Shown: positions 8,787 to 27,154 of the stretch, piece by piece | How positions within the stretch are numbered: the first letter of the stretch is position 1 | Layout: each line of letters begins with the position of its first letter | Assembly: GCA_030656195.1 (NCBI GenBank) | Contig: JAUSOJ010000250.1 | Coordinates: forward strand, 1 to 33,306 | Origin: Lutibacter sp. | GTDB lineage: Bacteria > Bacteroidota > Bacteroidia > Flavobacteriales > Flavobacteriaceae | Reading direction: 5' to 3' | Length of the DNA: 33,306 nucleotides | Notes under the pieces: generated by a model | What the model saw: only the letters and a program-made list of their open reading frames with translations | The model's database searches: none | What the model was told of the DNA's origin: nothing | Program-made: the position numbers and the translations under genes

Positions 8787-8956
8787 TTTTATAGGTTTGC
8801 CACAAAAATACCAATCTGTTTTTAATAAAGATTGCTAAATTTTAATAATTGCAACAATTTATAAAGTTTAAATGAAAATTATGAATGATTAGGTAATTAT
8901 TGGGTTAGTGATTACTTCACCCCATTTTATTTTCATATGAGTTCAGTGAACCATGT

Positions 8957-9046
8957 TTGAAGTGAAAAACCTTTTTTGATTTGCCTTTTGGCGAAGTAAA
9001 AAAGTTTGTAACGAAAAGCACGACCCGCCAGCTGGCGGGGAACCCC
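8957..9046. repeat. Intergenic inverted-repeat element (hairpin plus GC palindrome)
   Basis: CTTTTTTGATTTGCC (8971-8985) TTTT GGCGAAGTAAAAAAG (8990-9004); perfect palindrome CCCGCCAG|CTGGCGGG (9024-9039) overlapping GGGGAACCCC. Confidence 0.65.
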
Positions 9047-9584: not shown

Positions 9585-9619
9585 AAATCTCATTCTGGGT
9601 TTCCAGTTGTGAGATTTTT
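9585..9619 (+). promoter_or_regulatory. Terminator-like hairpin in greA 5' leader
   Basis: AAATCTCA-TT-CTGG-GTTT-CCAG-TTG-TGAGATTT followed by TT; ~23 nt upstream of the greA ATG. Confidence 0.6.
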
Positions 9620-9641
9620 GTATTTATTAAAACAGTAAGTT

Positions 9642-10118
9642 ATGAGTAATATTTCGTATTATACAGAAGAAGGGTTGAAAAAACTAAAGGATGAATTGGA
9701 GTTTTTGGAGCGTGTTGAACGCACAAGAATAAGTAATGATATTGCTGAAGCAAGAGATAAAGGAGATTTAAGCGAGAATGCCGAATACCACGCCGCCAAA
9801 GAGGAACAATCTATGTTGGAGTTGAAAATCGCCAAATTAAAAGAAGTGCTTTCCAATGCAAGAATAGTTGATGAATCGTTGTTGGATACTTCAAAAGTGT
9901 TGATTCATTCAACGGTGAGATTAAAAAACACGGTGACCAAAGCCGAATTTAAATATATTTTGGTGGCCGATTCCGAAACAAATTTGAAAGAAGGAAAACT
10001 GTCGGTAAATTCACCGATAGGTAAAGGTTTGTTGGGTAAAAAAGTTGGGGACATTACCGAAATTGAGGTGCCTAGCGGCGTTATGGAATTTGAGATTTTG
10101 GAAATTACCAGAGGATAA
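9642..10118 (+). CDS. greA: Transcription elongation factor GreA
   Basis: SYYTEEGLKKLKDELEFLERVERTRISNDIAEARDKGDLSENAEYHAAKEEQ is the GreA coiled coil; SPIGKGLLGKKVGD C-terminal domain. Confidence 0.97.
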   Translation: MSNISYYTEEGLKKLKDELEFLERVERTRISNDIAEARDKGDLSENAEYHAAKEEQSMLELKIAKLKEVLSNARIVDESLLDTSKVLIHSTVRLKNTVTKAEFKYILVADSETNLKEGKLSVNSPIGKGLLGKKVGDITEIEVPSGVMEFEILEITRG

Positions 10119-20360: not shown

Positions 20361-20388
20361 AATTCCCGCCCTTTGCGGGAATCTTTTT
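20361..20388 (+). terminator. Rho-independent terminator
   Basis: ATTCCCGC-CCTTT-GCGGGAAT then CTTTTT. Confidence 0.85.
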
Positions 20389-20404
20389 ATAAACCCTGTT
20401 TAAA

Positions 20405-21506: not shown

Positions 21507-24383
21507 TTAATTTCTTTTCAGTTTTTTCTTAATTTCAACTTCGTGGTAAGCTTCAATTAAATCACCAACTTCAATATCATTAAAGTTTTTAATTTGAAGT
21601 CCGCAATCATATCCTTTTGAAACCTCTTTTGCATCATCTTTAAAACGTTTTAAAGAGCTTAAATCGCCTGAATGAATTACAACACCATCTCTAATGACTC
21701 TAATTTTAGCATTTCTTTGAATTTTACCGCTCAATACCATACAGCCTGCAATTGTTCCGATTTTAGAAATTTTGAAGACTTCCCTGATCTCAGTATTACC
21801 TAAGATTTCTTCTTTCACTTCAGGAGACAACATGCCTTCCATCGCGTCACTTAAATCGTTGATGGCATCATAGATAATAGAATAAGTTCTGATATCTATT
21901 TCTTCATTGTCAGCCAATGTTCTTGCATTTCCTGAAGGTCTTACGTTAAATCCAATAATGATGGCATCGGATGCAGAAGCCAGCAATACGTCTGATTCTG
22001 TAATGGCACCAACACCTCTATGGATAATATTTACCTGAATTTCGCCAGTTGAAAGTTTTTGGAAGGAATCGGCCAACGCTTCTACGGAACCATCCACATC
22101 ACCTTTTAAAATAATGTTCAATTCTTTAAAGTCACCTAAGGCAATTCTTCGTCCAATCTCATCCAATGTAATATGACGTTGTGTTCTTACCGATTGTTCG
22201 CGTTGTAATTGAGAACGTTTAGAGGCAATTTGTTTTGCTTCTTTTTCATCTTCAAAAATGTAAAACTTATCTCCCGCTTGTGGCGCTCCATCCAAACCAA
22301 GTATTGAAACCGGCGATGAAGGTCCTGCAGTTTTCATGTTATTTCCGCGTTCATCAAACATGGCTTTTACTTTACCGCTGTGTTTTCCGGCAAGCATATA
22401 ATCACCAATTTTCAAGGTTCCGTCTTGAACCAATATGGTTGAAACATAACCTCGGCCTTTATCTAATAAAGCTTCAACAACAGTACCGCCGGCTCTTTTG
22501 TTTGGATTTGCTTTTAAATCCAGCATTTCGGCTTCTAGCAATACTTTTTCAAGCAATAATTCAACATTCTGACCTGTTTTGGCTGATATTTCCTGAGACT
22601 GAATTTTCCCTCCCCAATCTTCAACCAACAAATTCATTTGTGAAAGTTGTTCCTTAATTTTTTCAGGATTCGCGTTTGGCTTGTCAATTTTATTGATGGC
22701 AAAAACAATTGGCACACCAGCTGCTTGTGCATGGCTAATGGCTTCCTTGGTTTGTGGCATCACATCATCATCCGCTGCAATTACAATAATTACCAAATCC
22801 GTAACTTGAGCTCCACGAGCACGCATCGCTGTAAAAGCTTCGTGACCAGGAGTGTCTAAAAACGCTATTTTTTGTCCGTTTTTTAAATTTACGCCATAAG
22901 CGCCAATGTGTTGCGTAATTCCTCCGGATTCACCAGCGATTACATTTTCTTCACGAATATAATCCAGTAAGGAAGTTTTTCCGTGATCTACGTGTCCCAT
23001 TACGGTAACAATTGGTGCTCTTGGTTTTAAACCTTCAATATCATCCTCTTGTTCGTGAATGGCTTCTTCAACTTCCGCTCCAACAAAGTCTAAGCTGTAG
23101 TCAAATTCATCGGCTACAATACTAAGTGTTTCGGCATCCAAACGTTGATTCATAGTTACCATCAATCCCAAAGACATACAGGCTGAAATAACTTGGGTAA
23201 CCGGAATATCCATCATCGTGGCAATTTCGCTTACCGTCACAAATTCCGATACTTTTAGTATTTTGCTTTCAGCTTCTTGTTGCTCAAAGTCTCTTTCAGT
23301 TTGTATACGGTGTATATCTCTTTTGTCTCTTCTGTGTTTTGCGCCTTTTCCTTTTTTAGATTTACCTTGAAGTTTCTCTAAAGTTTCTCTAATTTGTTTT
23401 TGTACATCTGCTTCAGTAGGCTCTTCTTTTACCAAAGGTTTTCTGCCGCGCACCAATGGTGCTTTGTTGGCTCCTTTTTGGGCAAGAATTGGTTGTTTTT
23501 TAACGCCTGTTATTGGTGTAATAGGCATTTTTTTTACGATCCTTCTTCTTTTTTTCTTATTCGCTTCGCTGTCTTCTTTTTTAACAGACAGCTCAGGTTT
23601 TTTCTTTTTAGGACGTTCAAACTGTTTTAAATCAATTTTATCGCCAATAATTTTTGGTCCTTCTAATTTTGAATATACCGTTTCTATGGTTTGGGATTCT
23701 AAGATTTCGGCTTCAGTAGGTTCCTTTTTCTCCTCAATTATTTCAGGTTGTTGCTTTTCAGTTTCTATTGGTTGTGCAGCTTTCTTAAGAATAGGCTTTT
23801 TAGAAACCTTAACTTCTTGTTCTTCTGCTTTTGGGGTTTCTACAGGTTTTTCAACAGGCTTTTCTTTGATTTCAACTTCAACTTCAACTTCAACTTTTGG
23901 CGCTTCTTCTTTAATTTCTTCAACAGGTTTTGGTTGTTCAAGAATCACTTTGGGTTTTTCTTCAACTATAACTTTTGGCGTTTCTTCAACAACAGCAGCA
24001 GGTTTTTTCTCAATTTCCGCCTCTTTTGGCTCAATATCAATTTTGCCGACCGTTTTAATCTCTAATTTTTCCGCTTTTCCTTTAATCACAACTTTTTTGG
24101 CTTCTTCCTCAAGTCGATGTTTCTCAACCATTTCTTCATGAGCGATTCTTAAGGTTTCTTTTTCTTTCCTTTTTTCTTCGCTTACCTCTTTTGAAGCCGC
24201 TTTTTTACTTCTGTCGGTCTGAAAACCATCCAATAAGATTTCATACTCTTCGTCAGATATTTTTGTTGTAGGTCTTGCTTCAATTTCAAAACCTTTGGTT
24301 GCTAAATGCTCAACAGCTCTATCTAACGAGATATTCAATTCTCGTAATACTTTGTTCAGTCTTAATGTTTTGTCTTCAGCCAT
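21507..24383 (-). CDS. infB: Translation initiation factor IF-2
   Basis: PIVTVMGHVDHGKTSLLDYIR, DTPGHEAFTAMRARGA, NKIDKP; long charged N-terminal region. Confidence 0.98.
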   Translation of the reverse strand: MAEDKTLRLNKVLRELNISLDRAVEHLATKGFEIEARPTTKISDEEYEILLDGFQTDRSKKAASKEVSEEKRKEKETLRIAHEEMVEKHRLEEEAKKVVIKGKAEKLEIKTVGKIDIEPKEAEIEKKPAAVVEETPKVIVEEKPKVILEQPKPVEEIKEEAPKVEVEVEVEIKEKPVEKPVETPKAEEQEVKVSKKPILKKAAQPIETEKQQPEIIEEKKEPTEAEILESQTIETVYSKLEGPKIIGDKIDLKQFERPKKKKPELSVKKEDSEANKKKRRRIVKKMPITPITGVKKQPILAQKGANKAPLVRGRKPLVKEEPTEADVQKQIRETLEKLQGKSKKGKGAKHRRDKRDIHRIQTERDFEQQEAESKILKVSEFVTVSEIATMMDIPVTQVISACMSLGLMVTMNQRLDAETLSIVADEFDYSLDFVGAEVEEAIHEQEDDIEGLKPRAPIVTVMGHVDHGKTSLLDYIREENVIAGESGGITQHIGAYGVNLKNGQKIAFLDTPGHEAFTAMRARGAQVTDLVIIVIAADDDVMPQTKEAISHAQAAGVPIVFAINKIDKPNANPEKIKEQLSQMNLLVEDWGGKIQSQEISAKTGQNVELLLEKVLLEAEMLDLKANPNKRAGGTVVEALLDKGRGYVSTILVQDGTLKIGDYMLAGKHSGKVKAMFDERGNNMKTAGPSSPVSILGLDGAPQAGDKFYIFEDEKEAKQIASKRSQLQREQSVRTQRHITLDEIGRRIALGDFKELNIILKGDVDGSVEALADSFQKLSTGEIQVNIIHRGVGAITESDVLLASASDAIIIGFNVRPSGNARTLADNEEIDIRTYSIIYDAINDLSDAMEGMLSPEVKEEILGNTEIREVFKISKIGTIAGCMVLSGKIQRNAKIRVIRDGVVIHSGDLSSLKRFKDDAKEVSKGYDCGLQIKNFNDIEVGDLIEAYHEVEIKKKLKRN
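23871..23897 (-). repeat. Hexanucleotide microsatellite in infB (four TTCAAC units)
   Basis: TTCAACTTCAACTTCAACTTCAAC encodes VEVEVEVE in the IF-2 linker. Confidence 0.8.
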
Positions 24384-24424: not shown

Positions 24425-25684
24425 TTAATCTTTAAATTCTTCTCTTAATATTTTTTGAACCTCTAAAATGGTTTCTTCTTCTAAATCGGTTCTGCTCACA
24501 AGTTCATTGATGTCTTTTTCCAAGACGCTTCTTGCGGTGTCTAAACCAATATTTTTAAATTCCTGAATCACCCAAGCTTCTATTTCATCAGAAAATTCAG
24601 TCAATTCCACATCATCTTCTGCTTCAACGCCTTCACGCTGCACATCAAGCTCATAGCCGGTTAATTGCGAAGCCAATCGAATGTTTACGCCGTTTTTTCC
24701 AATTGCTTTTGAAACTTCTTCAGGCAATAAGTATACATCAACCCTGCCTTTTTTGCCATCTTCACGGCCTTCTTCTTCATGAATTTTCATGGAAACAACT
24801 TTTGCAGGGCTTAAAGCTCTTGCAATGTAAAGTTGTGTGTTTTTTGTGTAATTGATCACATCAATATTTTCATTCCCCAATTCACGAACAATCCCGTGAA
24901 TACGAGATCCTTTCATTCCAACACAAGCACCAACCGGGTCAATTCTGTCATCGTATGAATCTACCGCCACTTTTGCTTTTTCGCCAGGAATTCTTGCTAC
25001 GCCTTCAATGGTGATCAATCCGTCAAAAACCTCTGGGATTTCTTGTTCAAATAATTTCACCAAAAATTCAGGGGCAGTTCTCGATAAAATAATTACGGGT
25101 TTGTTGCCGCGCAATTCTACGGATTTAATGATTCCGCGAACGTTATCTCCTTTTCTGAAGTAATCTGAACGAATTTGTTCATTTTTTGGCAAGATGATTT
25201 CATTGCCGTCGTCATCCAACAAAATGATTGCATTGTGACGAATATGGTGAACCTCAGCAGTGTAAATATCGCCTTCTAACGCTTTAAACTGTTTGAAAGT
25301 ATTTGTGCTGTCGTGTTCATGTATTTTTGAAATCAGGTTTTGGCGTAAGGCTAAAATAGCGCGTCTTCCTAAATCGATTAACTTTACTTCTTCCGATACG
25401 TCTTCGCCGATTTCAAAATCCGGTTCAATTTTTCTGGCTTCTGAAAGTTCAATTTCTTCATTGTCATCTTCCGACATTCCATCAGCAACCACAACGCGAT
25501 TTCTCCAAATTTCTAAATCGCCTTTATCCGGATTTATAATAATATCAAAATTATCATCAGATCCGAATTTTCTTTTTAAAGCAGCTCTAAAAACTTCTTC
25601 AAGTATTGCCATAAGCGTTACCCTGTCAATATTTTTATCTCCTTTGAAATCTGAAAACGACTCAATTAATGCTAAATTTTCCAT
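24425..25684 (-). CDS. nusA: Transcription termination/antitermination factor NusA
   Basis: S1 and KH motifs: VDSYDDRIDPVGACVGMKGSRIHGIVRELGNENIDVI; lies between infB and rimP. Confidence 0.97.
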   Translation of the reverse strand: MENLALIESFSDFKGDKNIDRVTLMAILEEVFRAALKRKFGSDDNFDIIINPDKGDLEIWRNRVVVADGMSEDDNEEIELSEARKIEPDFEIGEDVSEEVKLIDLGRRAILALRQNLISKIHEHDSTNTFKQFKALEGDIYTAEVHHIRHNAIILLDDDGNEIILPKNEQIRSDYFRKGDNVRGIIKSVELRGNKPVIILSRTAPEFLVKLFEQEIPEVFDGLITIEGVARIPGEKAKVAVDSYDDRIDPVGACVGMKGSRIHGIVRELGNENIDVINYTKNTQLYIARALSPAKVVSMKIHEEEGREDGKKGRVDVYLLPEEVSKAIGKNGVNIRLASQLTGYELDVQREGVEAEDDVELTEFSDEIEAWVIQEFKNIGLDTARSVLEKDINELVSRTDLEEETILEVQKILREEFKD

Positions 25685-25696
25685 GCACTCTCTTAA

Positions 25697-26164
25697 TTAA
25701 AATATTATTTTCACTTTTGCCTCTAAAATATTGCTGAAAGGGATGGTTGAATTTTTAGTGACCGTTACTTTACCTTTTCCTAAAGGCTTTGGTTCACGGG
25801 TTTTATACTCTAACTCAATCTCACTGTCGGTAACATTTTTAAGCACACCTTCAATAGTGGTGTTGTCTTTTAACTTTAAGGTTAAAACCCTATTGATATT
25901 TTTTTTATACTGCCGGTTAACTTTTAAAGGATTTGCAATGTCGGGTGAAGCAACTTCAAGAGAAAAATCTTCTATTTCTCGGTCTAAATTATGCTCAATT
26001 CCTCGACTTATTCTAATACATTCCTTTAAAGTTACGCCGTGATCGCCATCAACTTCAACAGAAATTTTGTTATCTGCCAAAAATTTCAAGTCTATCAAAA
26101 ACAACTCTGGGTTTTCTTCGATAGCTTCTTTTACCAAATTTATGACTTTTTCTTTTTGTATCAT
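25697..26164 (-). CDS. rimP: Ribosome assembly cofactor RimP
   Basis: CIRISRGIEHNLDREIEDFSLEVASPDI; rimP-nusA-infB order. Confidence 0.95.
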   Translation of the reverse strand: MIQKEKVINLVKEAIEENPELFLIDLKFLADNKISVEVDGDHGVTLKECIRISRGIEHNLDREIEDFSLEVASPDIANPLKVNRQYKKNINRVLTLKLKDNTTIEGVLKNVTDSEIELEYKTREPKPLGKGKVTVTKNSTIPFSNILEAKVKIIF

Positions 26165-26169
26165 ACTAT

Positions 26170-26201
26170 AAAAAGAGGGGACTTATGTCCCCTCCTAGTC
26201 C
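26170..26201 (-). promoter_or_regulatory. Terminator-like hairpin in rimP-nusA-infB leader
   Basis: On the - strand GAGGGGAC-ATAA-GTCCCCTC-TTTTT ends 5 nt before the rimP ATG; alternative GGACT/AGTCC pairing (26179-26183 / 26197-26201). Confidence 0.65.
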
Positions 26202-26222
26202 TTTATCTGTTCTAATTCCGTG

Positions 26223-26230
26223 CAAATATA
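26223..26230 (-). promoter_or_regulatory. Predicted -7 promoter element of rimP-nusA-infB
   Basis: TATATTTG on the - strand (TAnnTTTG consensus). Confidence 0.5.
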
Positions 26231-26323: not shown

Positions 26324-27154
26324 ATGAAAAGTATTCTGGTCCCTATTGATTTTTCTGAACAAGCAAAGTATGCGGCAAAAGTAGCGTCTGATATTGCCAG
26401 ACATACAAATGCAAAAATATTCTTGTTGCACATGCTTGAACTTCCCACAGGAATTATTGATCCTGCAGGCTACGGTTCTTCTAGCAATACGCCTTCGGCC
26501 TTGCTGTTTTTGAAGAGAGCTCACGAAAAGTTTGAGGAATTTAAAAAATTGCCTTTTTTGGAGGGTCTTGATGTGCAGGATTCCGTTCAGTTTCACAAAG
26601 CTTATGATGGCATTATTGACGAAAGCAAAAAGCAAAATGCCGATTTAATTGTAATGGGTTCAAAAGGAACTTCCGGACTTGAAGAAATGTTGGTGGGCTC
26701 CAATACCGAAAAAGTGGTCAGAAATTCTGATGTTCCCGTACTTGTTATCAAAAGAGATATTGAGAAATTTAAAATAGATAATATCGTTTTTGCTTCTAAT
26801 TTTAAAATTGATCATAGAAATGCTTTCCAAAAAATATTGGATTTTTCGTCGCTTTTTAATGCGCGGCTGCATTTGCTTAAAATAAATACGATCCATAATT
26901 TTGAAACCACCAAAGAATCAAGTGATGCCATAAGAAATTTTATCAATGATTTTGATTTGGGTGATTATACCTTAAATATATACAATGATATTTCTGTGGA
27001 AGCCGGTATTTTAAATTTCTCTAAAGTGATAGATGCGGATGCCATATTGTTAAACACCAGTGGCAGAAGAGGTTTAGCTCATTTATTTAATGGAAGCATC
27101 GGCGAAGATTTGGCAAATCACGCAAAATTACCTGTGATAACTTTTAAATTGTAA
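26324..27154 (+). CDS. Universal stress protein, two tandem Usp domains
   Basis: MKSILVPIDFSEQAKYAAKVASDIAR...DLIVMGSKGTSGLEEMLVGSNTEKVVRNSDVPVLVIKR, then a second degenerate Usp domain. Confidence 0.95.
   Translation: MKSILVPIDFSEQAKYAAKVASDIARHTNAKIFLLHMLELPTGIIDPAGYGSSSNTPSALLFLKRAHEKFEEFKKLPFLEGLDVQDSVQFHKAYDGIIDESKKQNADLIVMGSKGTSGLEEMLVGSNTEKVVRNSDVPVLVIKRDIEKFKIDNIVFASNFKIDHRNAFQKILDFSSLFNARLHLLKINTIHNFETTKESSDAIRNFINDFDLGDYTLNIYNDISVEAGILNFSKVIDADAILLNTSGRRGLAHLFNGSIGEDLANHAKLPVITFKL

Follow-up and report, generated by a model that had tools for sequence, protein, structure and literature searches.

A conserved leader hairpin of the rimP-nusA-infB operon in Lutibacter and other Bacteroidota: a likely rimP-leader-type attenuator with NusA as candidate regulator

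The rimP-nusA-infB operon of Lutibacter sp. begins with a compact leader, in which a promoter box is followed by a GC-rich hairpin and a T-run. We consider it likely that this leader works as a transcription attenuator and belongs to the rimP-leader kind, with NusA as the likeliest factor setting read-through and thereby exerting negative feedback on nusA. In this reading, the hairpin probably stops transcription, and NusA is the best candidate for the regulator of the leader terminator.

Architecture of the leader in the Lutibacter window

In the window, which is the whole 33,306-nucleotide stretch analysed, the minus strand carries the hairpin and T-run GAGGGGAC-ATAA-GTCCCCTC-TTTTT at 26194-26170, 5′ of the rimP ATG (26164). 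The TTTTT is followed by ATAGT and then by this ATG, which lies 5 nt beyond the end of the U-tract and 10 nt beyond the end of the stem. The initial annotation had described the TATATTTG box, the hairpin, their coordinates and the 5-nt gap to the ATG, and direct reading confirmed all of these to the base. We infer that transcription starts ~5-8 nt past the TATATTTG box. The components of the leader and the operon genes are listed in Table 1.

Table 1. Components of the leader element and genes of the downstream operon, in window coordinates
Feature	Position	Strand	Basis
TATATTTG, flavobacterial -7 promoter box of the TAnnTTTG type	26223..26230	-	direct read; 104/109 delimited related loci
AT-rich stretch of 28 nt between box and hairpin	26195..26222	-	poorly conserved; without conserved structure
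5′ arm of the putative terminator stem, GAGGGGAC	26187..26194	-	direct read, fold, compensatory changes
Loop ATAA	26183..26186	-	length and letters vary among relatives
3′ arm of the putative terminator stem, GTCCCCTC	26175..26182	-	direct read, fold, compensatory changes
U-tract TTTTT, then ATA; expected termination region	26170..26174	-	direct read; T-richness kept in relatives
rimP, operon gene 1	25697..26164	-	ORF of 155 aa; PF02576 RimP_N match
nusA, candidate target and candidate feedback regulator	24425..25684	-	ORF of 419 aa; hairpin stays 5′ of nusA without rimP
infB, operon gene 3	21507..24383	-	ORF of 958 aa; also 3′ of nusA in rimP-less genomes

The neighbour on the other side is a universal-stress-protein-like ORF (26324-27154, +) that runs divergently. 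Therefore, the hairpin is not the terminator of another gene, and this reading was ruled out. With no same-strand gene upstream, the element is the operon's own leader, as had been annotated initially. The hairpin ranks first among the terminator-like candidates in 18-33 kb of the window, and the 83-nt region containing it folds with -19.9 kcal/mol (z = -3.6), which none of 200 shuffles equalled. The core GGGGAC-N2-8-GTCCCC has a single occurrence in the 2.9-Mb genome. A competing GGACT/AGTCC hairpin had also been suggested. This pairing can form, but when forced it yields -5.8 kcal/mol, as compared to -18.2 kcal/mol for the terminator fold, and is thus ~12 kcal/mol worse; moreover, it is not conserved, as GGACT is found only in the window and the closest Lutibacter relatives. 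The competing hairpin was rejected on both grounds.

At the gathering score, Rfam 15 assigns no family to the element, with nothing near threshold there; the sole Rfam match in the window is the Flavo-1 RNA (RF01705) at 8945-9029 (+), with 52.8 bits. A separate hairpin, ATTCCCGCCCTTTGCGGGAAT-CTTTTTATAA, is located in the queA-rlmN gap (20362-20392, +), a little 5′ of rlmN, and may serve either to terminate queA or as a leader element of rlmN.

Conservation and RNA structure from Flavobacteriaceae to the phylum

How widely is the element conserved? The nearest relatives by RimP are mostly named Lutibacter, with 91-97% RimP identity. The element could be delimited at 109 related loci; among these, the exact 8-base arms are present in 80 and the GGGGAC/GTCCCC core in 101. 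A covariance model (R1), composed of the promoter box and the hairpin, was run on 151 Flavobacteriaceae genomes and matched 131 of them, exactly once per genome. By comparison with the rimP positions, each of the 131 matches shares its contig and strand with rimP and lies directly 5′ of it, with a median gap of 11 nt. The combination of box and hairpin is thus far from chance, and the conservation upstream of rimP that had been anticipated holds throughout these matches and also beyond the family. Eleven genomes possess rimP without a model match; in ten of their loci (L159-L162, L164-L169) a diverged hairpin and T-run are visible by eye, and in L163 no hairpin was seen by eye. Since the core is unique in its own genome and the model matches once in each of 131 family members, there is no sign of other targets, and the idea of a regulon was rejected.

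Within Flavobacteriaceae, the sequence of the stem hardly changes, which exceeds what a bare terminator requires and counts against the attenuator reading. Covariation within the family is therefore uninformative, and a wider set of 93 Bacteroidia sequences was aligned. This alignment was fitted to the structure, with slid versions serving as the control. In it, each of the eight stem pairs shows a compensatory, two-sided change in at least one sequence; 24 such cells were observed, as compared to a shuffled mean of 2.1 and far lower values for the slid controls, and 98.2% of the stem cells are paired. Following the stem, five to eight of the next 8 nt are T in all 93 aligned relatives. The loop varies in its letters and in its length among the relatives (3-7 nt, apart from a single 13-nt loop). 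The spacer between the box and the stem is poorly conserved in sequence and spans 12-32 nt (median 26) in the 93 sequences, which leaves no room for a riboswitch or other sensor, a T-box, a leader peptide or an antiterminator. By this spacing and the lack of an Rfam family, the region 5′ of the terminator has neither a sensor domain nor a leader ORF, by which a riboswitch, T-box or leader peptide would be recognized.

Members of the Arenibacter/Flagellimonas/Cellulophaga group have a further short inverted repeat, GAATAT-N-GTATTC, which is located immediately 5′ of the attenuator stem (L024 1424-1490, L075 1327-1393, L103 1420-1487 and relatives), and is perhaps a pause hairpin.

The covariance model also matches other families and orders of Bacteroidia; of the fetched matches outside the family, most lie 5′ of rimP and one directly 5′ of nusA. 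For the phylum, we scanned the 200 nt upstream of 41 rimP genes, which were drawn from a Pfam search rather than picked by their hairpins, and some of which come from the same family and are hence not all independent. All 41 of these leaders contain a terminator-like hairpin that reaches at least -8 kcal/mol in stability. At -10 kcal/mol, the sense strand scores in 40/41, the antisense strand in 8/41 and the shuffles in 49/410; for comparison, 2 of the 48 divergent-gene leaders of one complete relative contain such a hairpin. Stems without relation to this one occur in other classes of the phylum, such as TCGCCC/GGGCGA or AAGTGGG/CCCACTT.

Target gene, proposed mechanism and alternatives

Which gene of the operon is the target? 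Nine genomes have nusA without a RimP_N match: five from a single related family within the order (G155, G169, G180, G189 and G243), the Flavobacteriaceae genome G004, and G159, G161 and G437. A hairpin with a T-run lies upstream of nusA in all nine, a count that rests partly on incomplete assemblies (68-100% complete) and leaves out G177, where nusA begins its contig; the 300-kb genome G165 is the only rimP-less genome judged to have no hairpin 5′ of nusA. In the five genomes of the related family and G004, the hairpin is close to nusA, and a tRNA-Gln (TTG) is located just 5′ of the nusA leader (L236, L240, L241, L242, L245 and L246). The hairpin directly followed by nusA-infB indicates that rimP was deleted in place. 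As judged from this gene order, the element follows nusA(-infB). These lineages are natural deletions, and the retention of the hairpin makes nusA, or infB, a likelier target than rimP; since infB lies 3′ of nusA in the rimP-less genomes checked, IF2 is also a possible target. The complete genome G040, in which rimP was not found, is a separate case. At G040:C1:717496-718293 (L247), nusA matches only from residue 144 inside a 1964-aa open frame, and the operon is rearranged or misassembled.

We propose the following mechanism. RNA polymerase would start a few nt past TATATTTG, transcribe ~20-25 nt, and then produce the 8-bp GC-rich hairpin and the U-tract. Part of the polymerases would stop at the U-tract and release an RNA of ~45-50 nt, while the others would continue into rimP-nusA-infB. 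In the lack of a sensor domain or antiterminator, read-through is most likely set by a factor acting via the polymerase. In other bacteria, NusA promotes the folding of hairpins as well as intrinsic termination. The published precedents for such leaders, together with the hairpin staying with nusA after the loss of rimP, make NusA the most plausible regulator. A rise in NusA would thus increase termination and reduce the nusA transcript, forming a negative feedback loop. We also entertain, with considerable doubt, the more specific idea that the near-invariant Bacteroidia stem GAGGGGAC/GUCCCCUC is recognized through its sequence by a transcription factor, NusA being the simplest choice. The hairpin would then be a dedicated NusA-recognition terminator, instead of a generic one, with a class-specific code.

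The alternative that survives best is a real leader terminator without a NusA-specific feedback. The terminator might hold a fixed expression ratio, respond to another elongation factor (NusG, Rho or GreA), or report the growth rate via polymerase speed. The anatomy suits any factor that acts on terminators, and greA has a leader hairpin in these genomes as well. However, the element occurs once per genome, at the nusA operon, and remains with nusA where rimP is gone, and a review (PMC12288461) documents feedback by NusA at this same leader of B. subtilis. We regard a terminator without NusA-specific feedback as unlikely.

A much smaller chance is given to translation control, in which the hairpin would mask the rimP ribosome landing site. 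The stem end is indeed only 10 nt from the ATG in the window, and start-codon occlusion had been raised in the initial annotation. In nine of the 109 loci, Arenibacter included, however, the hairpin is separated from the start by ~20 to 130 nt (20-29 nt in two loci and at least 100 nt in the other seven), with the longest distance, ~130 nt, in Arenibacter, and three further family genomes have gaps of 97-101 nt to rimP. The U-tract is conserved in spite of such distances, and the hairpin persists 5′ of a different gene, nusA, in the genomes without rimP. Occlusion is thus not supported as the shared function, as the distances vary, reaching ~100 nt or more in several genera, and the hairpin precedes nusA in the rimP-less genomes. 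In nine loci (L026, L075, L089, L092, L094, L102, L104, L173 and L174), the attenuator and the rimP start are separated by ~100-130 nt of extra leader, and no obvious second TAnnTTTG promoter was found in this extra leader.

It is similarly improbable that the hairpin stabilises the mRNA 5′ end, or that the leader, once released, functions as a small RNA at other sites. The nearly invariant family stem would fit either role, and the E. coli greA leader RNA provides a precedent for a role in trans (PMC6829880). Nevertheless, a stabiliser would not need the conserved U-tract right after the stem, and the other classes keep the hairpin with an unrelated sequence, which is unexpected for a trans-acting RNA. 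Finally, a DNA operator for a dimeric regulator at the palindrome GAGGGGAC-N-GTCCCCTC, as its perfect inverted repeats with a nearly fixed sequence in Flavobacteriaceae might suggest, is rejected as having a negligible chance, because the arm spacing ranges from 3 to 7 nt, and the compensatory stem changes and the strand-specific U-tract fit an RNA.

Comparison with known leader attenuators

In their study of 302 genomes, Naville and Gautheret (2010; PMC2965389) identified the rimP-leader as the most ubiquitous attenuator and proposed NusA as its effector in other bacteria; the main text of that article does not mention Bacteroidetes. As described there, the terminator has a GGGc(...)gCCC motif conserved in its stem, shows no larger structure and is located 4-130 nt from the gene. 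The Bacteroidia element resembles it in its position in the 5′ leader of rimP-nusA-infB, in its G-rich 5′ arm, C-rich 3′ arm and conserved stem sequence followed by a T-stretch, in the absence of an antiterminator or larger conserved structure, and in its distance to the gene, from 5 nt in the window to the Arenibacter maximum. In contrast to the GGGc/gCCC stem, the flavobacterial GGGGAC/GUCCCC keeps the G-run, the C-run and the C-G loop-closing pair with an intervening A-U pair; an exact GGGGC/GCCCC stem is present in some relatives (L005, L143). Two further differences from the published description are the unrelated stems of other Bacteroidota classes and the hairpin at nusA in genomes without rimP.

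Guerin et al. (2021; PMC9723704) reported an element 5′ of rimP in F. psychrophilum that is expressed, structured, conserved in Flavobacteriaceae and without an Rfam match, and gave TAnnTTTG as the flavobacterial sigma-A consensus. This is very probably the same element, for which the main text of that paper gives no sequence, structure or mechanism. Our literature search found no Bacteroides Term-seq paper on the rimP leader locus, and for rimP and Flavobacterium johnsoniae start sites found only the F. psychrophilum paper.

According to a 2025 review (PMC12288461, citing Mondal et al. 2016), NusA of B. subtilis controls its own expression by stimulating termination in the 5′ leader. Both cases place an intrinsic terminator in the 5′ leader of a nusA-containing operon. 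However, the regulation was demonstrated experimentally in B. subtilis and is inferred here, and the leader is ~180 nt there (PMC2965389), as compared to ~50-60 nt here.

The greA leader in the window was likewise expected to have such a hairpin, and a conserved one is indeed present: AAATCTCATTCTGGGTTTCCAGTTGTGAGATTT-TTGTATT lies at 9585-9624 (+), upstream of greA (9642-10118, +), and the 82-nt region folds with -17.5 kcal/mol (z -2.8). Many Flavobacteriaceae greA leaders have TATATTTG and AATCTCGTG..CGGGATTTTTT in common, and the terminator test at -8 kcal/mol was passed by 24 of 30. The E. coli greA leader, which yields GraL, also combines a short leader, an intrinsic terminator, an elongation-factor gene and autoregulation; overproduction of Nus factors had no substantial effect on it (PMC6829880). 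It differs from the rimP leader element in both gene and sequence.

Leader termination as a means for NusA, a core elongation factor, to exert feedback on its own operon appears to be common to distant phyla. The Bacteroidota version, with its ~50 nt, single copy per genome, stem that is nearly invariant within a family, and unrelated stems in other classes, would provide a clean system for the tuning of terminators by NusA. Judged by its sequence, the window element belongs to the already known rimP-leader kind, with a stem motif that is off by one A-U pair; the new features are its anatomy and statistics across the Bacteroidota, the stems specific to individual lineages, and the apparent retention at nusA after the loss of rimP.
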